34,028 nucleotides of DNA from positions 1 through 34,028 of the IMG/VR virus record IMGVR_UViG_3300009156_000421; one strand, given 5' to 3'. The notes beneath the pieces are model-generated. The model had not been told where the DNA came from. It searched no databases and worked only from the letters and a program-made list of their open reading frames with translations. Made by a program: the position numbers and the translations under genes. The stretch is from a virus. Below, in pieces: positions 528 to 23,868 of this stretch (within the stretch, counting starts at the first letter, position 1; each line of letters starts with the position of its first letter).

Positions 528-1986
528 AGATGCCAGCGCGGGACGACTCATTCAGCAAGGCTTAGACCTCGTCTTGGACTGGCCCGACTTCGCCAGCGCC
601 CGACTGCACAACTGGCGGAATACGAGCGATGGTGTGCGCGGCGAGCTTACGGTGACGCAGAACGGGGTGAAGTGTTCGTGGGGCAGCTGGAACCTCGCGA
701 GCACCACCACCCGCGATGCCCTCGCCAAGCGGCTGAAAACCGTGAGCCCCGATATCCCGTGGGGTCCGCATCTCGAGGAGGCCGCGTACCGATTCACGCT
801 GGCCGCTCGGACGGGCGAGCCCCTGGTCTTCTTGGACGGCTCGGCAATCACCGAAGACGCCGAGATCCTCCTGCCGGGATGGCTCTACGCGGGGCAACCC
901 ACCCTGCTCTACGCGGATGGCGACACGGGCAAGAGCATGACCGCCCTCGCCCTCGCGATCGCCATGCAGACAGGGCAGACGCTCCCGGGCCTCACGCCGA
1001 CGCGCGCGGTGCCGGCCGCGTACCTCGACTGGGAAACCTCCCAGGCCACGACCACCCAGCGGCTTCGACTCCTGGCGGCCGGGCTCGACATCCCCCCGCC
1101 CCGGCTCCTCTACAAGCGCATGACGCGTCCCCTGGTCGAAGACGTGGGAATGCTCTCGGTCGAACTCGCCCGGCACAAGGTCGGGTTCATCGTGGTCGAT
1201 TCCAAGATGTTCGCGATCTCCGGGGGTGATGGGGCCGCCTTCCATGAGCCCATCACCGCCTTCTACAACGCCCTCCGACTCTTCGCCCCGGCCGCCGTCC
1301 TCGTCCTGAACCACATCACCAACGCCGATGCCCGCACCGGGGCCACCGCCCGTCCCTTCGGGGGCGCCTTCGCCTTCAACGGCCCGAGGGTCATCTGGGA
1401 GGCCCGCCGGGATCAGGAGATCGAGGACGCGACGGCGATCGTCTTCACCAACACGAAAGCCAACAACCTTGCCCGCAAGGCCCCGGCCTTCGGACTCCGC
1501 TTCCGGGGGGGCGGACAGTCCCCGGCGGACAGTGAAATTCGGATCGAGGCGCTCCCGCTCACCGACGTGGCCCCCAAAACGATGATCGGCGCGACCCTCC
1601 GACAGCGCCTGCTCGTCCTCCTGTCCGCGCCGATGTCCGTCGAGGATCTTTTGGAGGCTCTGCCGGGCGCCAAGGAGGATTCAGTCACCCGTATCCTCCG
1701 ACGAATGAAGACACTTTACTTTGAAGTCACACAGCTGTCCGACGGGCGCTATCTGGCGACGACTCCACCGGGAACGGACAAGGCGGACACTGTCCGGACG
1801 GACACTGTCCTCGCCCATCGTCTCGCGCCCACGGATGAGGAGGTTACTAGACCTCATCCTGGGGCGGACGGACACTCTTTGTATATAAGGGACTGTCCGC
1901 TGTCCGCCAGAGACAGGGAAACCCCTACAGAATCAACTGAACCGTCTTGGATCACGACGGATCCGCCTGATTCGGATCCTCTATGA
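517..1986 (+). CDS. RepA/AAA_25-like replication ATPase
   Basis: A 489-residue P-loop ATPase of the RecA/DnaB superfamily, similar in layout to RepA-type helicases (AAA_25). An N-terminal region of about 120 residues precedes the motor core. Walker A is GDTGKS near residues 135-140; Walker B is the hydrophobic strand ending VVDSK near 222-230; an LNHI sensor-like strand follows. The C-terminus (about 360-420) looks like a winged helix (MSVEDLLEALPG, then SVTRILRRMK). The frame is open further upstream, but ATG 517 is preferred because it overlaps the stop of the zinc protein gene. The last 200 nt carry GGACACTGTCC repeats that may be DNA sites rather than protein constraint. Likely role: helicase or helicase loader. 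No DNA polymerase is visible in the window. Confidence 0.78.
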   Translation: MGDEDASAGRLIQQGLDLVLDWPDFASARLHNWRNTSDGVRGELTVTQNGVKCSWGSWNLASTTTRDALAKRLKTVSPDIPWGPHLEEAAYRFTLAARTGEPLVFLDGSAITEDAEILLPGWLYAGQPTLLYADGDTGKSMTALALAIAMQTGQTLPGLTPTRAVPAAYLDWETSQATTTQRLRLLAAGLDIPPPRLLYKRMTRPLVEDVGMLSVELARHKVGFIVVDSKMFAISGGDGAAFHEPITAFYNALRLFAPAAVLVLNHITNADARTGATARPFGGAFAFNGPRVIWEARRDQEIEDATAIVFTNTKANNLARKAPAFGLRFRGGGQSPADSEIRIEALPLTDVAPKTMIGATLRQRLLVLLSAPMSVEDLLEALPGAKEDSVTRILRRMKTLYFEVTQLSDGRYLATTPPGTDKADTVRTDTVLAHRLAPTDEEVTRPHPGADGHSLYIRDCPLSARDRETPTESTEPSWITTDPPDSDPL

Positions 1987-2474: not shown

Positions 2475-2669
2475 ATGCCTGAAAACCATCTCGAGCAACC
2501 GATTCGCGAGGGGGAGGTGATCGAACGGCCGAGCGCGACGTTCTCGGCTTTGCAAGTCCTGCGCCTCTACCGGATGGAGCACGCGAACCGCCTGCGGAAC
2601 CCGTGTACGCGCGGGCACCCGATCTGCGTCGCGTGCGCCCGCGCCGACGAGCTGCTGGCCCAGCGATGA
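2475..2669 (+). CDS. small Cys-containing hypothetical protein
   Basis: A 64-residue protein with a clear Shine-Dalgarno (AAGGAG at 2464-2469) 5 nt before ATG 2475. The middle is helical (LQVLRLYRMEHANRL) and the end has a C-x8-C-x2-C pattern (PCTRGHPICVAC), possibly half of a zinc site or a dimer interface. Its stop overlaps the next ATG in an ATGA, so it heads a chain of four tiny co-translated genes. The family is not recognised. Confidence 0.6.
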   Translation: MPENHLEQPIREGEVIERPSATFSALQVLRLYRMEHANRLRNPCTRGHPICVACARADELLAQR

Positions 2670-2752
2670 TCTGGCTCATCATCGCCGCGATCGCGTTCGG
2701 CCTGGCGCTCGTCGGCGCGTTGCTCGCGCTGTTGGGAAATCACCGCGAATGA
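2666..2752 (+). CDS. 28-residue single-pass membrane peptide
   Basis: ATG 2666 overlaps the upstream stop (ATGA). The peptide is almost entirely one hydrophobic helix (IWLIIAAIAFGLALVGALLA) followed by a short polar tail, GNHRE. It fits a single transmembrane segment and could be a small inner-membrane effector or a holin-like peptide. It is supported by the overlap chain and the strict membrane pattern; there is no recognised homologue. Confidence 0.5.
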   Translation: MIWLIIAAIAFGLALVGALLALLGNHRE

Positions 2753-2841
2753 GTCGCCCGACGCGCGCCGAGCTCTACGCGGGTTCGCTCGCCTTCGTGC
2801 TCGTCATCCTGCTCGCGATCTGGTTGCTGGTGTACGGATGA
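2749..2841 (+). CDS. 30-residue membrane peptide
   Basis: ATG 2749 overlaps the preceding stop (ATGA). A polar N-terminus (MSRPTRAELYAG) is followed by one hydrophobic helix (SLAFVLVILLAIWLLVYG) ending at the C-terminus. It is the second of two successive single-pass peptides; they may form a pair. No separate ribosome site is visible, so expression probably depends on re-initiation from the gene before. Confidence 0.5.
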   Translation: MSRPTRAELYAGSLAFVLVILLAIWLLVYG

Positions 2842-2937: not shown

Positions 2938-3627
2938 ATGAAGAAGTGGCTGGGCATCCTCGCGCTCGCGCTCCTGCCGCACGTCGCGCTCGCCGCGCCC
3001 GCGATCCTCTCGTTCGACAATCCGACCGTGGACGGCGGCACCGTCACCTATGACGGCGCGGGCGGGGCGCTGTCGGCCGCCAACGTGATCTTCCAGCAAG
3101 TCATCGGCGTGGACACGCCCGCGAATGCCGGGGCCTCGCTGTTCTGCTATCCCGTGCCCTGCCTGCTCAACTTCACCACCGGAGACAACCTGACCGAAGG
3201 CCCGCCGGCCTACACGTTCGCGGGCGGCGGCGATCTCACGCTGACGGGCGGGCTCAACACCGCGCCCGATGGCAGCGGGGCGCAAATCTCGCCAGCGGGC
3301 ACGCTGCTCGCGCACAGTGGCGTCTTCGCGGATCCCTCGCTGGTGCTCGGCGGCGGCGGCACCTCGATGCTCTTCATCGGCGTGGGCGAGGATGCGAAGG
3401 ACGTGACGCTGACGGACTATTACGGCGTGACGGGCTTCGGGTTCGCGTTCGCGAATACGGAGCTCTCACTCGCGAACGCGGTCTTTGATCCGACCACGGC
3501 GGCGTTCACGGCGACCGTGACCGATGCGGACTTCGCGAACACGGCGGTGCCCGAGCCGGGCACGTTGCTGTTGCTCGGCACCGGCCTCCTGGCCGCCGTG
3601 CCGCTGGCGCGGCGCGTTCGGCGGTAG
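2938..3627 (+). CDS. PEP-CTERM sorting-domain protein
   Basis: A 229-residue secreted protein. ATG 2938 is chosen because GGAGG (2926-2930) precedes it by 7 nt and a signal peptide begins there (MKKWLGILALALLPHVALA, likely cleavage near residue 20). The middle is rich in Gly, Thr and Asp and beta-type. The end is a textbook PEP-CTERM signal: V-P-E-P-G at 204-208, a hydrophobic helix (TLLLLGTGLLAAV) and an Arg-rich tail. In bacteria this signal is recognised by exosortase EpsH/XrtA for sorting to the surface, often with exopolysaccharide. Its presence in a phage-like region is odd; it implies an exosortase-bearing host and a possible role in changing the surface of the infected cell or lysogen. 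Confidence 0.85.
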   Translation: MKKWLGILALALLPHVALAAPAILSFDNPTVDGGTVTYDGAGGALSAANVIFQQVIGVDTPANAGASLFCYPVPCLLNFTTGDNLTEGPPAYTFAGGGDLTLTGGLNTAPDGSGAQISPAGTLLAHSGVFADPSLVLGGGGTSMLFIGVGEDAKDVTLTDYYGVTGFGFAFANTELSLANAVFDPTTAAFTATVTDADFANTAVPEPGTLLLLGTGLLAAVPLARRVRR

Positions 3628-4666: not shown

Positions 4667-4692
4667 GGCGCCTCCTCCTGGCTGTGGGGCGG

Positions 4693-4720
4693 TTGCGTTT
4701 TGCGTCGGCGCGGATAGTAT
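4693..4720 (+). promoter_or_regulatory. promoter for terminase gene, near-leaderless
   Basis: TTGCGT (4693-4698), 16-nt spacer, TAGTAT (4715-4720). The -10 ends 8 nt before the GTG start at 4729, and there is no Shine-Dalgarno. The -10 lies in the palindrome GATAGTATC, so a minus-strand TACTAT box for the divergent gene overlaps it. Confidence 0.42.
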
Positions 4721-4728
4721 CACGCGCA

Positions 4729-6537
4729 GTGAGTCTGATTCGCCTCCCGTCGGAACAGGATCTGTGGCGATTCTCGCTTCAGGTGCCCATCGCCACCAAG
4801 GACTTTGGCGTGCGCCCCATCACGCCGTGGGGCACCCAGCGCGTCGCCCTCCGCACCATCCTCGCCGGGAAAGAGAAGGGCATCAACCAGTTCCTGTTCG
4901 TGAAGGCCCGCCAGGTCGGCCTGTCCACGTTCATGCTGATCCTCACGCTCCTCTGGATGCAGCGGTTCGCGGGCCTCCAGGGCGTGACGATCACCGATTC
5001 CGCCGAGAACAAGGAGTACTTCCGCGATCTGTTCATGGGCATGATGGACGAACTCGTCCGACGCCACGACGAGGCCGGGGAGGACACCGGCCCCGCCGCG
5101 ACCATCGAGGAGAAGCCGCTCGATCCGAGCAAGACCCGCGCCCGCAATCAGGTGCAGATCGTCTGGAACAATATGAGCCGGCTGTTGCTCCAGACGTGCG
5201 GGCGGCAGACATGGACCCGGCTGGGCGTCGGACGAGGCTTGTCGTTCACCCATGGCACCGAGGTGCCGCTCTGGCCGCACGGCGGGAAGGCCGTGACCTA
5301 CTTGCGGAGCGCGTGGTCCGAGGTGAATCCCGCGTCCCTCTACGTGCTCGAGGGGACCGCGCGCGGCAAGAACTGGTTCTACGATCTCTGGCTGTCCGCC
5401 CAGAAGGCGAAGACGATGAAGGCCGTCTTCATCAGCTGGTGGCTCCGCGAGGACAACCGGATCCGCCCGCGCCAGAAGAAGCTCTGGCAGGCCTACGGCA
5501 ATCCCGGGCTCACGCCGAAGGAGCGCGAGTGGGATCAGTTGCTCCGCAAGCGCGACCGGGTGGTGCTCGATGTGGAGCAATGGGCGTGGCGCCGCTGGTA
5601 CGTCGCGGAGAAGGCGGCCGGCTCCCAGCGCCTCGCGGATCAGGAGATGCCGACCGTCTGGGAGGACGCCTTCAGCGCGAGCATGGAGCGCCCGTTCCTC
5701 GATCGGCTGACGCAGGAGCGGATCGATCTCTCCCTCTGCGAGCCCGCCGCCGCGTACTGCTACGAGTGGGGCAACACGATGGAGACGACCCATCCCTCGC
5801 CGGCCGGGCTGAAAGATCCGATGCTCCGGGTCTGGACGCCGCCCGATACGCGGCCGGTCGTGGTGTCGGCCGTCCCCGCGCACAGTGCGATGCCCGACGA
5901 TCCCTCCTGGGTCGTCTCGGTCTGGTCGGCCGCGCTCGATGAGGACAAGCTCGAGCAATCCGCCGAGTTCCACACCGAGTCCAACATCGGCCTCCAGGCC
6001 TTCGCGTGGGTGACGCTCCATCTCGCCGGCGCGTATGGCGCGCAGCACAAGACCCTGATCTTGGAAGTGAGCGGGCTCGGCGCGGGCGTCCTCACCGAGA
6101 TCCAGCGCCTGGTGCGGCAGGGCTACGGCACGACGCGGACGCCCGGCTTCCTCGATGTGCTGGGCTCGGTGCGGCACTACATCTGGCGGCGGCCCGATTC
6201 GCTCACGGCGCGGGGCGCCTACCAGTGGAAGTCGAACGCGGAGACGCAGGCCACGGTGCTCCAGCGGTTCCGCGACCAGATCCAGCGCGGTGCCGCCACC
6301 GTGCGCTCGGAGTACCTCGCGGAGGAACTGACGCGGCTCGAGGGCGCCGGCGACGGCTTCGTCCCGACGGGCGAACTCCCCCGAGGCCACCGGGCCCAGG
6401 CCGGCGCCCTCGCCGTCGAGAGCTACGTCGCGCAGCTGTACCCGACCTTGAAACGCTACCGGGAGCGCGGGCAGCCCGCGACCACGGTCCAGGGCCGCAC
6501 GATCCAAGAGTTCTTCGGGACGCTGGGCCGCCGATAG
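4729..6537 (+). CDS. terL: terminase large subunit
   Basis: A 602-residue packaging motor that uses ATP to pump DNA into the prohead through the portal and cuts the concatemer. The adenine-binding/Walker A motif is KARQVGLST (residues 59-67). A Walker B-like acid lies at E178 in HGTEVPLW, and the coupling motif is EGTARGKNWFYDLW (208 onwards), the usual spacing for phage terminases. The C-terminal 250 residues should be the RNase H-fold nuclease; I cannot place every catalytic acid. GTG 4729 is chosen because the protein then begins SLIRLPSEQDLW and follows the -10 box by 8 nt; the frame is open upstream to 4684. No small subunit is obvious nearby; the zinc proteins next to it are candidates only by position. 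Confidence 0.88.
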   Translation: MSLIRLPSEQDLWRFSLQVPIATKDFGVRPITPWGTQRVALRTILAGKEKGINQFLFVKARQVGLSTFMLILTLLWMQRFAGLQGVTITDSAENKEYFRDLFMGMMDELVRRHDEAGEDTGPAATIEEKPLDPSKTRARNQVQIVWNNMSRLLLQTCGRQTWTRLGVGRGLSFTHGTEVPLWPHGGKAVTYLRSAWSEVNPASLYVLEGTARGKNWFYDLWLSAQKAKTMKAVFISWWLREDNRIRPRQKKLWQAYGNPGLTPKEREWDQLLRKRDRVVLDVEQWAWRRWYVAEKAAGSQRLADQEMPTVWEDAFSASMERPFLDRLTQERIDLSLCEPAAAYCYEWGNTMETTHPSPAGLKDPMLRVWTPPDTRPVVVSAVPAHSAMPDDPSWVVSVWSAALDEDKLEQSAEFHTESNIGLQAFAWVTLHLAGAYGAQHKTLILEVSGLGAGVLTEIQRLVRQGYGTTRTPGFLDVLGSVRHYIWRRPDSLTARGAYQWKSNAETQATVLQRFRDQIQRGAATVRSEYLAEELTRLEGAGDGFVPTGELPRGHRAQAGALAVESYVAQLYPTLKRYRERGQPATTVQGRTIQEFFGTLGRR

Positions 6538-6562: not shown

Positions 6563-7027
6563 ATGGGTCCACGGGCGAACTTTGAATGCGCCCACTGCAC
6601 CGACGTGGAATTCGGGCCCGAGCCGACCCAGATCGTCGTCTACGAGGATCTCCCGCTCAAGAGCGTGCGGTGCCCGGTGTGCAGCTGGAAGAAGGGTTTC
6701 CGGCGGCGATTTGATGCCATCCAAGTCTCCACCACCGGGCACCGCATCGCGAAGATCCTCGATCCGATGATGGAGCCCCAGATCAATCAGGCGTCGATGA
6801 TGAAAGACGACGCCAAGCGGAGCGAGCGGCAACTGGCCGAGGATCACGCCCGCGCCATCGAGATCCTGCCCGAGCCCCAGCGCCCGGCGATGCGGGAGGC
6901 GCTCCACGGCGGGCCGTCGAAGTGGGTGCCGGCGAAAACGGTCGGGATCTCGCCCCAGGCGGCCTATGACTCGCGGATGCACATCTGGCCGCACATCAAC
7001 CGCCGCATCGTGCCGACGCGGGCCTGA
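6563..7027 (+). CDS. zinc-ribbon protein between terminase and portal
   Basis: A 154-residue protein. The N-terminal domain has two CxxC knuckles, C9-AH-C12 and C37-PV-C40, a zinc ribbon that resembles FmdB-like regulators. The rest is helical with a basic stretch (KRSERQLAEDHARAIE) and a tail that mentions an HTH-like SPQAAYDSRMHIW. It starts after a TAGACT box and overlaps the portal start (TGATG). The position suggests a packaging accessory, possibly acting with TerL at the portal, but this is inference. Confidence 0.68.
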   Translation: MGPRANFECAHCTDVEFGPEPTQIVVYEDLPLKSVRCPVCSWKKGFRRRFDAIQVSTTGHRIAKILDPMMEPQINQASMMKDDAKRSERQLAEDHARAIEILPEPQRPAMREALHGGPSKWVPAKTVGISPQAAYDSRMHIWPHINRRIVPTRA

Positions 7028-8766
7028 TGGCCCCGAAGTCGTCCGCCTACGAGACCCGGCGGCGCATCGATGAGGCCCGCGAGCTCCTGCACGTCTACAT
7101 CACGCGCGCCGGCATCTCGCGCGAACAGCGGCGCGTGCAGGGGTCGAATCTGCGCCAGTGGTACGAGGCGGGCACGGAGGACGGCTACTCGGCCCGCTAC
7201 AACAAGTTGCGGGCGCATCTGGACCGGCTCTCCTCGTACATCTGGTCCCCCGACAGCGTCCGGTTCGGCGTGCATCTGCCGCCGGCCACGCGGAAGGACT
7301 GGCTCGATCCGGCCCAGACGGCGCGGGACGAGTTCCGCCAGGTCTGGGCGAACAGCGGCGCCGATCTCTCGGTGAGTCTCGCGCTCGAGTGGGCGCTGGT
7401 CTACGGCGCGAGCCCGCTCAAGATTCAACAGGATCCCCAGAAGGGCTTCGTCATCACCGCGATCGATCCGTGGGATTTCGGCGTGACCCGCGAGGATCAG
7501 CCGTCCCTCACCGATCAGGACGTGTACTGCCACTGGTACTCCTTGTCGATGCCGCAGTTCGAGCGGTGGGTGCAGGGCCATCCCCGCGAAGAGGAGATGA
7601 TTACCAAGGCGGCTCGGCTCGCGTCCCCGCACGCCGGGGGCTCCGGGTACACGCGGCTCGTCATCTCGGGGCTCACGGGCCCCTTTCCGAACTCGGTCGT
7701 CTCGGGCGCGATGCCGGGCGACGTGAACGACTCGACGTACTTGCTCGAGGCGAACGTGATCGAGCCGGTCGTCTTGCTCTGCGATGTCTGGGAGCGCCGC
7801 GCGTACCACGACACGCTCGCGGGGCCCTACGAGGACTGGCGGGTGACGACGGTGCTCCACGACGGCACCGAGCCCCTCATCCGGCGCCGGAACCCGATCT
7901 TGCCGTGGATGAAGACGCCGACGGGCCAGGTCTTCCCCGGGCAGGCCCCGTTCGGGATCCTCACGCCCCGGCCGATGCCGAACTACCTCTGGGGCCGCTC
8001 CGAGCTCGCGAGCCTCCTGATGCTCCAGCAATGGCGCGAGCGCCACGTCCGCTCGATGGACGAGGTCGTGCAGCGGCAGCTGGACCCGTCGAAGCTCTTC
8101 ATCGGTCTCAGCGACTTTGAAGAGGCGGGCCGGGCGCTCTCGAACGTCGGCGGCAGCTACGGCACGGGCGATCCGAACGTGAAGTTCGAGACGATCAAGG
8201 TGGAAGTCGGCCAGGAAGCGTTCGCCATGATCGGCCAGATCGACCAGATGTTCGATGATCAGAGCGGGATTCCGCCGACGCTCCAGGGCCAACAGACGCC
8301 CGGCGTCCGGTCGAACGATCAGCTGATCTCGATGGCGGGCATCGGCGCCGGCCGCATCCGGCACATGGCCCTCCAACTCGAGAGCGTGCTCTCCCACATG
8401 GCGACGTTGGGGTTCCGCATTCTCCAGCACGCGGACGACCAGACCTACGAATCGCCGCAGGGCCAGCGGTTCATCCTGGCCCAGCTGCCGTCGGGTCTGA
8501 CGCTCCAGGTGTCCGCGCACTCGTCCTCGCCGATCTTCTCGGAACAGACGCAGATGAAGGCGCTGGAACTCTTCAAGGCGGGCGCGATCGACGGCGAGTG
8601 GCTCATCGAACTGATGGACCCGCCGCACCGCGAGGAGATGAAAGAGACCTCGCGGCGGCTCGCGGAAGGCCGTGCCGAGAACCAGAAGCAGCTGATGATG
8701 CTGGCGGCGGCGCGGATCGAGCGCAAGGCGCAACGGCTCGGGCCGGGGCGGCCGGTGGGGAGCTAG
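7027..8766 (+). CDS. portal protein
   Basis: A 579-residue protein placed right after the terminase and before the scaffold and capsid genes, with portal size and features: an N-terminal helical region (RNKLRAHLDRL-like), a hydrophobic clip-type core (LALEWALVYGASPLKI), a long helix region and a DQSGIPPTLQGQQTPGVRSN loop, then a helix-rich C-terminus (EEMKETSRRLAEGRAENQ). The portal forms the twelve-subunit ring at the capsid vertex through which DNA is packed and ejected. ATG 7027 overlaps the upstream stop. The family is assigned from context and general layout rather than one signature motif. Confidence 0.75.
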   Translation: MAPKSSAYETRRRIDEARELLHVYITRAGISREQRRVQGSNLRQWYEAGTEDGYSARYNKLRAHLDRLSSYIWSPDSVRFGVHLPPATRKDWLDPAQTARDEFRQVWANSGADLSVSLALEWALVYGASPLKIQQDPQKGFVITAIDPWDFGVTREDQPSLTDQDVYCHWYSLSMPQFERWVQGHPREEEMITKAARLASPHAGGSGYTRLVISGLTGPFPNSVVSGAMPGDVNDSTYLLEANVIEPVVLLCDVWERRAYHDTLAGPYEDWRVTTVLHDGTEPLIRRRNPILPWMKTPTGQVFPGQAPFGILTPRPMPNYLWGRSELASLLMLQQWRERHVRSMDEVVQRQLDPSKLFIGLSDFEEAGRALSNVGGSYGTGDPNVKFETIKVEVGQEAFAMIGQIDQMFDDQSGIPPTLQGQQTPGVRSNDQLISMAGIGAGRIRHMALQLESVLSHMATLGFRILQHADDQTYESPQGQRFILAQLPSGLTLQVSAHSSSPIFSEQTQMKALELFKAGAIDGEWLIELMDPPHREEMKETSRRLAEGRAENQKQLMMLAAARIERKAQRLGPGRPVGS

Positions 8767-11071: not shown

Positions 11072-12118
11072 TTGGCACTCGTAAATTTTGGGATCGTGCC
11101 GGGAGGTGCTGTCGGGACCGAGCTCCAGGCTGTCACGCGCCGCGCCGCGATGCCCGCCGTCGTCGTGCAGCTGGGCAAGGCCACGCCGACGCTGTCCGCG
11201 ATGCTCGCCGCCGCCGAACCCGTGAAGGGCGGCGTGTCGCCGGTCACCATTCCCGTGCAGGGCACGCGGATGGTGACGGGCCAGTTCGTGGATTACAGCG
11301 GCGCGGGCAGTGCGCCGACCGTGGCGCCGGGCCTGATGAACGCGGAGTACAACCTCAAAGCGTTCACGACCTGGATTCCCTACTATTTGTTTGAAGGCCT
11401 CATCCAGCAAGACGCGGAACTCGTCCCGATTATTTGGGCGAGAATGAACGATGCCGGCAACGTGGCGTCGGACACGTTGGCGACCAAGCTGTTCGCGCCG
11501 CTGTCCGCGAACACCGGCCTCGAACCCTTCTCCTTGCCCGATGTGTTCGCGGCGACCGATCCCACGCAGGGGGCGCTCGGGAACATTCCCGTCACCAATA
11601 CCTGGTGGAGGGGCAACAACGCCACCATCGCGTCCCTCAACGTGGGCGGCACCGCGCTGACCACGATCACGCGGGCGGGCGTGCTCGCCTCGCTCCACTG
11701 GGCGCAGAAGGGCTCCGGCGGCGAACCGCCGTCGTGCGGCCTGATGTCGCCCGGCGCGTTCATGGCGCTCGCGGCCGATGTGATCGGCGCCGAACGCTAC
11801 AACATCACGCCCGAGGGCAGCTACGGCGAGGTCGGCGAGGGGCCCACCGTCGCGTTCCCGGCGCTCCGCATCGGCGGCGTGTCGGTGTACTCCGACGTGT
11901 ACTACCCCGACAACACGACCATCGCCTGGCCGAACTACAACTACCTCCAGTACAAGATCCATCAGGACGCGGCCTTCACCGTGATCGGCCCCGAGTCGCT
12001 CCTGCCGCAGTACCAGCTGGGCTACGTCATGGTGATGCTGTGCCTGCTCGAGACGGTGTGCTCCAAGCGGAACGCCCAGAGCATGATGACCGGGTGGACG
12101 GGCGCGTTGACGATTTAG
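11072..12118 (+). CDS. major capsid protein
   Basis: A 348-residue protein in the place of the coat gene, after scaffold and decoration genes. It has mixed alpha/beta content, an N-terminal arm (AMPAVVVQLGKATPTL), E-loop-like and A-domain-like regions and no membrane segment or enzyme motif, consistent with an HK97-fold coat. It begins with TTG 11072; GGAGG at 11061-11065 is 6 nt upstream, and no better ATG is near. A TTG start for the most abundant virion protein is unusual. The coding region opens with an AT-rich patch. Confidence 0.75.
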   Translation: MALVNFGIVPGGAVGTELQAVTRRAAMPAVVVQLGKATPTLSAMLAAAEPVKGGVSPVTIPVQGTRMVTGQFVDYSGAGSAPTVAPGLMNAEYNLKAFTTWIPYYLFEGLIQQDAELVPIIWARMNDAGNVASDTLATKLFAPLSANTGLEPFSLPDVFAATDPTQGALGNIPVTNTWWRGNNATIASLNVGGTALTTITRAGVLASLHWAQKGSGGEPPSCGLMSPGAFMALAADVIGAERYNITPEGSYGEVGEGPTVAFPALRIGGVSVYSDVYYPDNTTIAWPNYNYLQYKIHQDAAFTVIGPESLLPQYQLGYVMVMLCLLETVCSKRNAQSMMTGWTGALTI

Positions 12119-22943: not shown

Positions 22944-23378
22944 GTGTCGAACCTTTCAAATTACCTAGAGAACCGCCTCGTCGATCACATACTCCGCGCC
23001 ACGGCCTATCCCGTGCCGACGGCGATCTATGTGGGGCTCTTCACGACGCCGTCGAGTGACGCCGGGCCCGGCACTGAAGTGAGCGGGGGCGGCTATGCGC
23101 GAGTGCAAGTGGGCCCCGGTCTCGCATCATGGGCCGCGACGCAGGGGGGCACGGCGGGGGCCAGTTCGGGCACGACCGGCCAGTCATCGAACGTCGCCGA
23201 CATCACGTTTCCGGCGCCATCCGCGAACTGGGGAACGATCACGCATTTCGGATTGTTCGACGCAGTGACCGGAGGGAACCTGTTGATGCAGACGGCGCTC
23301 GCGGTAGCTAAGATCGTGAACAGTGGTGATCAAGCACCAAAATTTCCTGCGGCAGGCCTCACAGTTACTTTGGACTAA
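22944..23378 (+). CDS. Gp80-like tail-associated protein
   Basis: A 144-residue beta-rich protein. The N-terminus SNYLENRLVDHILR, then PTAIYVGLFTT, an EVSGGGYARV turn and a C-terminus with WGTITHFGLFD and FPAAGLTVTLD match the Gp80-like phage tail-fibre protein family. GTG 22944 is chosen since the protein then begins MSNLSNYLENR. The HNH endonuclease gene starts 4 nt after its stop, and the C-terminus appears intact, so the insertion did not break it. Confidence 0.72.
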   Translation: MSNLSNYLENRLVDHILRATAYPVPTAIYVGLFTTPSSDAGPGTEVSGGGYARVQVGPGLASWAATQGGTAGASSGTTGQSSNVADITFPAPSANWGTITHFGLFDAVTGGNLLMQTALAVAKIVNSGDQAPKFPAAGLTVTLD

Positions 23379-23382
23379 CACC

Positions 23383-23868
23383 ATGCCGAACATTCTCGGC
23401 AACACCCACACTGACGAGGCCAAAGAAAAGATGGCGGCGGCGTCGGTGCTTCGGTGGAAGAAGCCAGAGCAACATGAGCAACAGGCTGCACTGCGGCGTG
23501 GGTACAAACACTCCGCTGAGACCAAGGCGAAGATGTCGGCCACGTTTCTGCGGAAGATGGCCGACGATCCCGCCTACGCCGCGATGCGCCGAGAGAATGC
23601 GCGGCGCAACAGTCTCAGGGCCCGCCAGCGATTCCTCGCCACGCTGGCGGGCACCAATCTGGTACTCGCGGACATTCCCCTGAGCAAGGAAGAGAAGAAG
23701 ATGCTCCGGGCGTTTCACTGTGCGATCTGCCGCACGCTGGATCGTCCGAGGCAGCTGGCGCACATCGTGGCGCGGTCGCACGGTGGCCCGCAACGGCACA
23801 CCTGGGGCAACACGATCCCGCTCTGCGCCCCCTGTCACGCCGCCGTGGATCACGGCAAGGTGATCTGA
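23383..23868 (+). CDS. NUMOD3-HNH homing endonuclease
   Basis: A 161-residue protein. Two NUMOD3-like DNA-binding repeats (HTDEAKEKMAAAS and YKHSAETKAKMSATF) precede an HNH nuclease domain of about 50 residues with CAIC, the AHIVARSHGG catalytic histidine segment, an N in GNTIPL and CAPCHAAVDH. Free-standing HNH genes of this kind spread by cutting allele-free copies and are typical invaders of phage gene clusters. Start ATG 23383 is chosen over the in-frame GTG 23323, which would overlap the previous gene. Local AT content is raised at its 5' edge (about 23330-23400). Confidence 0.82.
   Translation: MPNILGNTHTDEAKEKMAAASVLRWKKPEQHEQQAALRRGYKHSAETKAKMSATFLRKMADDPAYAAMRRENARRNSLRARQRFLATLAGTNLVLADIPLSKEEKKMLRAFHCAICRTLDRPRQLAHIVARSHGGPQRHTWGNTIPLCAPCHAAVDHGKVI

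Follow-up and report, generated by a model that had tools for sequence, protein, structure and literature searches.

The roles of PEP-CTERM proteins are largely unknown, and what becomes of their cargo at the cell surface is an open question. Together with exosortase (EpsH), these proteins define a Gram-negative sorting system (Haft et al. 2006, PMC1569441; PF07589, TIGR02595). Under the established model, Sec exports the protein, the C-terminal helix retains it and exosortase processes it at the PEP motif (PMC1569441). The system is associated with exopolysaccharide, and hosts carry many PEP-CTERM genes (PMC1569441). One host member, PepA, keeps polysaccharide bound to cells and functions in flocculation (PMC9850573). 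Among phages, T5 encodes an envelope protein, Llp, that blocks adsorption to infected cells and to debris (PMC9586334). Our literature search, thin on subscription journals so that absence is not proof, found no report of phage-encoded PEP-CTERM proteins, nor any work linking PEP-CTERM with auxiliary metabolic genes; in two papers that pair PEP-CTERM with phage, virus or prophage, PEP-CTERM refers to a host gene. The sorting signal is already known; what looks new is its use by phages, on many unrelated cargo domains.

The DNA analysed here is an IMG/VR virus record of 34,028 bases (hereafter the window), whose PEP-CTERM gene founds what we call family A (Table 1). The ORF at 2938-3627 (+) encodes 229 aa, from an ATG at 2938 to a TAG at 3625-3627, with a strong Shine-Dalgarno sequence (GGAGGT) 6 bases 5' of the ATG. 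In the N-terminus (MKKWLGILALALLPHVALA followed by A), inspection and a script show a charged stretch, a hydrophobic stretch and an AxA site, and a signal peptide is predicted from the hydropathy (maximum 2.2) and that site; its first 12 residues are identical to those of the L005 homologue, a protein 52% identical overall. At the extreme C-terminus, the VPEPG motif (residues 204-208), the helix and a basic tail with 4 Arg among the last 8 residues run to the end of the protein at residue 229, and this tail scores above the curated cut-offs of both PF07589 (20.7 bits) and TIGR02595 (16 bits). The signal peptide and the complete C-terminal sorting signal described in the sequence-only reading were therefore borne out by these cut-offs and by the signal-peptide features.

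Table 1. Features of the window around and downstream of the PEP-CTERM gene.
Feature	Position	Strand	Evidence or remark
AAA-domain protein	628-1986		upstream of PEP-CTERM gene
64-aa protein and two tiny membrane proteins (28, 30 aa), overlapping	2475..2841	+	direct reading, translation
PEP-CTERM protein gene (family A)	2938..3627	+	ORF, RBS, PF07589 26.4 bits, TIGR02595 19.6 bits
Predicted Sec signal peptide MKKWLGILALALLPHVALA	2938..2994	+	n/h/c regions, AxA site, hydropathy
Mature domain, no named family, conserved cysteine pair C70/C75	2995..3546	+	family A alignment
PEP-CTERM sorting signal VPEPGTLLLLGTGLLAAVPLARRVRR	3547..3624	+	PF07589, residues 203-229
Small HTH gene	3751	+	weak excisionase-type PHROG match
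Large terminase subunit	4684..6537	+	tblastn MW202753 E 6e-69, MW202825 E 1e-58; phrog_2 1e-5
Portal-like protein	7027..8766	+	position; weak SU10_portal and phrog_104 matches only
Acb2/Tad1 hairpin-domain protein, 72 aa	8771-8989	+	PF24729, 54 bits
Major capsid protein	11072..12118	+	NF033394 72 bits (cut-off 80); tblastn 39.8% to MW202825 capsid, E 1e-62
SU10-type adaptor	12131	+	
Transglycosylase protein	17903	+	
Podophage fibre protein	22944	+	
NUMOD3/HNH homing-endonuclease-like gene	23323-23868	+	adjoins podophage fibre gene
Exonuclease VIII	30342	+	PHROG search
FN3 + helical-domain protein, 415 aa	31713..32960	+	homologues in L005, L025

Like the host proteins of the PEP-CTERM/exosortase system, the window protein combines a signal peptide, PEP motif, helix and basic tail with a highly variable mature domain that has no internal membrane segment. 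It differs from them in lying among phage genes, whereas the host version usually sits in single-gene operons, in the lack of an exosortase in the phage record, and in that phage mature domains match no named PEP-CTERM family. The named PEP-CTERM families that matched scored far under their NCBIfam cut-offs, the protein minus its tail matched no NCBIfam model, and the whole protein had no match in PHROG. It shares its type of tail with the PepA floc proteins (NF033554; Aquincola, Zoogloea; PMC9850573), and a surface and exopolysaccharide context is plausible; its NF033554 score was 29.9 bits, under the cut-off of 80, and the mature domain alone gave no match to that model. With the superinfection-exclusion proteins of the T5 Llp type (PMC9586334), the likeness is one of proposed role (a small phage envelope protein blocking adsorption): Llp is a periplasmic lipoprotein, whereas the window protein carries an exosortase signal. 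An AlphaFold model of the mature domain, built from six sequences, gave no usable fold (pLDDT 33.9), and searching family A against solved structures returned only weak SiaP matches (best E 0.048) that we take as chance.

Some 1 kb separates the gene from the terminase downstream, with the portal-like and capsid genes following, so that it stands outside the structural block of the window. Directly 5' of it are the tiny membrane-protein genes (2666-2841, +), joined by ATGA overlaps at 2666 and 2749, and we infer that these overlapping genes may be functionally tied to it. Three further contigs represent this phage, more than 99.9% identical over the aligned parts. One of them, of 44.8 kb, includes the whole window and extends into small phage-like genes; neither a tRNA nor a terminal repeat was found in it, and no integrase turned up in the scanned genes of the window. 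Hallmark genes are closely linked to PEP-CTERM genes in independent contigs and, in relatives, on both sides (L027, L032, L017, L053). The phage-like region of the sequence-only reading is thus upheld by the terminase, capsid, adaptor, fibre and transglycosylase genes downstream on the same strand, and that the window could be host chromosome outside the phage is excluded by the surrounding phage genes and the three further contigs. More generally, a host flank or contamination was ruled out as the source, since phage genes flank both sides in several contigs.

Homologues of family A occur in five other phages (loci L005/L006/L007, L025/L034, L020, L032 and L043). They are 47-65% identical to the window protein overall and keep its architecture, and the tail is present in all of them, including those found through patterns from the mature domain. 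Differences cluster at third codon positions, with dN/dS between 0.17 and 0.72 across pairs (0.32 for the window against L032), which indicates a translated gene under purifying selection, and identity is higher in the tail (0.91) than in the mature domain (0.57). A chance motif at the C-terminus was ruled out by the architecture conserved in these diverged homologues and by the selection pattern, and the tails kept across complete family B ORFs (see below) also speak against it. By sequence criteria, we therefore regard the window protein as a confirmed PEP-CTERM protein with a complete sorting signal under selection.

The setting of the family A gene varies. In L005 and L025, it lies between terminase-like genes and a gene of the 415-aa type, which follows directly with a four-base start/stop overlap; in L032, it lies between capsid (phrog_10, E 6e-59) and tail genes in a phage with a phrog_12 portal (E 8e-102); at L051, on the same contig as L043, it is part of a replication region that also encodes a DNA polymerase A and a synthetase of PurZ type. 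The latter genes of the L051 contig (3300009162_000040; 2-499 and 1548-3323, -), the synthetase being a fragment matching phrog_1211, make a Z-genome (2-aminoadenine) phage possible. Family A was absent from 50,697 phage records. Two scans of 84,980 species genomes of bacteria and archaea gave no relative; they used short conserved peptide patterns, which can miss distant relatives, and within this limit a host protein from which the gene may have come, as had been suggested, did not emerge.

PEP-CTERM tails are not confined to this family. A strict high-GC VPEP pattern found 27 stretches in IMG/VR, all 27 with the tail in frame at the C-terminus, and a looser one found at least 120. The loci collected hold at least 141 PEP pattern matches in at least 43 clusters by mature domain. 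Among the matches listed, the motif stands 14-45 residues before the stop in 138/141, a signal-peptide-like start is present in 118/141 (most others are cut by the ends of the stretches collected or fall under the script threshold), and the largest clusters have 36, 20 and 10 members. Tandem pairs of PEP-CTERM genes occur on single phage contigs (L024, 3720-5092, +; contigs of L084, L092, L135, L154 and L169). The gene lies between terminase and portal in L017, L053 and L058 and directly between capsid and portal genes in L027, and many relatives carry it in late structural operons. The portals of the carriers differ in type (phrog_1216, phrog_2271, phrog_12, P22-type), showing that PEP-CTERM genes occur in phages of unrelated build. 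Proviral flanks of host DNA could account for several singleton clusters; they do not account for the repeated families, which are linked to phage genes. VPEP-tail proteins are therefore found in other phages, among IMG/VR loci; representatives of families A to E had no homologues among the phage isolates of INPHARED, and families A and B had none in plasmids. Altogether, phage-encoded PEP-CTERM proteins are a recurrent gene class with many unrelated mature domains, not the property of one odd phage.

Family B, the commonest family, was searched through its mature domain alone, which avoids the bias of searching by tail; searches started from two sub-clades, as a diverse alignment of 15 members was too diverged for scanning. 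This gave 102 loci, 6 of them truncated where the contig stops. No tail has been lost from the 96 ORFs that are complete: it is of the canonical [VA]PEP form in 91 and a close variant (TPEP, SEPA, VEPS) in 5. In diverged pairs (<60% identity), the 14-residue tail core has a mean identity of 76%, against 41% for the mature domain; compositional constraint on the membrane helix may account for part of this difference, although the PEP motif itself is kept too. In 55/102 loci, the ~4 kb of flank covered includes a homologue of terminase, portal or capsid (the hallmark seed from L062, labelled TerL, is a P22-type portal; PF16510, 384.6 bits).

How might such a protein act? During infection, Sec would export it, and the C-terminal helix with its Arg tail would anchor it in the inner membrane, where the host exosortase would cut it or hand it over at the PEP motif. 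Its mature domain would reach the outer membrane or the space beyond, amid the host exopolysaccharide, and would there most plausibly mask or alter the phage receptor or the matrix, such that neither the infected cell nor its debris would adsorb progeny and competitor phages. These steps differ in strength. Exosortase genes were absent from 29 viral records, and any processing must therefore use the host enzyme; from the biology of the PEP-CTERM family, export and processing by host exosortase are very probable. Together with the polysaccharide role of host PepA, the lack of a viral exosortase suggests that the host enzyme would place the phage protein on the infected cell. Phages tend to retain only useful genes, and the phage versions thus point to a surface function important in infection, for which we hypothesise a block of adsorption or superinfection. 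The earlier proposal that the phage uses a host surface-sorting system is supported in part, by a phage-encoded protein with a complete, selected signal and by the lack of exosortase in the 29 records; cleavage and the surface role are putative.

Our preferred reading, held with somewhat less than even confidence, is thus a phage-borne substrate of host exosortase, displayed on the infected cell and most plausibly blocking adsorption or superinfection. For the class as a whole, we see an even chance that host exosortase serves as a display route for many cargo domains, often encoded in late operons, that control adsorption or matrix. The late-operon placement fits exclusion at debris, or a role in the virion, better than early exclusion, and one common receptor-blocking mechanism is not evident from mature domains that are unrelated between families. 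If the protein were a virion component, produced along with the structural proteins and joined to the particle (for example to aid exopolysaccharide binding), this would explain why several relatives carry the gene inside the head and tail operon. However, its Sec signal peptide and membrane-anchor tail would divert the protein from capsid assembly in the cytoplasm, mature domains differ wholly between families and the window gene is outside the structural block, which leaves this role distinctly unlikely.

An unlikely but better-placed option is a matrix or aggregation protein that retains or remodels exopolysaccharide, keeping infected cells aggregated or providing an accompanying polysaccharide-active enzyme with its target, with no block of adsorption. 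Host PepA holds polysaccharide on cells (PMC9850573), and the candidate enzyme is the 415-aa FN3 + helical-domain protein, also encoded in the window and 61-76% identical between the phages of the window, L005 and L025. This protein had no match in Pfam; its model (pLDDT 54) weakly resembles GH76, heparinase and alginate lyase folds (best Foldseek E 2.9e-3), making its helical domain a putative (alpha/alpha)6-toroid and the protein possibly polysaccharide-active. The gene overlap in L005 and L025, taken with this resemblance, leans towards a polysaccharide role, subject to the poor model; against it, the enzyme assignment is weak, the two genes are 28 kb apart in the window and the mature domain without its tail does not match PepA. 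The gene could also be a passenger ('moron') taken from a host and serving that host without a direct part in infection. PEP-CTERM genes are abundant in their hosts (PMC1569441) and the location of family A varies among phages, but the scanned window genes include no integrase, the pattern-limited scans of species genomes gave no family A relative, and a gene that recurs in phages whose portals are of unrelated types probably benefits the phage, so that we consider this quite unlikely. Finally, because the signal peptide and tail are the only feature common to all families, the proteins might act as decoys that saturate host exosortase and strip the host of surface proteins, which may include factors for defence or adhesion. 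Conserved mature domains of 160-200 aa, under the purifying selection described above, would be superfluous in a decoy, and we judge this reading very improbable.

If the preferred reading of exosortase-dependent display holds, phage PEP-CTERM proteins would supply small, testable exosortase substrates and hint at how phages of exopolysaccharide-coated bacteria handle adsorption and superinfection. That many uncultivated phages carry such genes suggests frequent borrowing of the host exosortase machinery for surface display and, for annotation, PEP-CTERM genes in viral contigs should not be equated with host contamination.

The carrier contigs have further features of their own. The 72-aa Acb2/Tad1 protein of the window is likely a cyclic-nucleotide sponge against CBASS-type defence, with relatives in the family B contigs L017, L023 and L026. 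In the contigs of L037 and L026 (G026:C1:12657-14216, -, and G016:C1:9915-11474, -), the large-terminase frame stays open over 657 aa only with readthrough of four TGA codons, for which TGA recoding or frameshifts are possible explanations.
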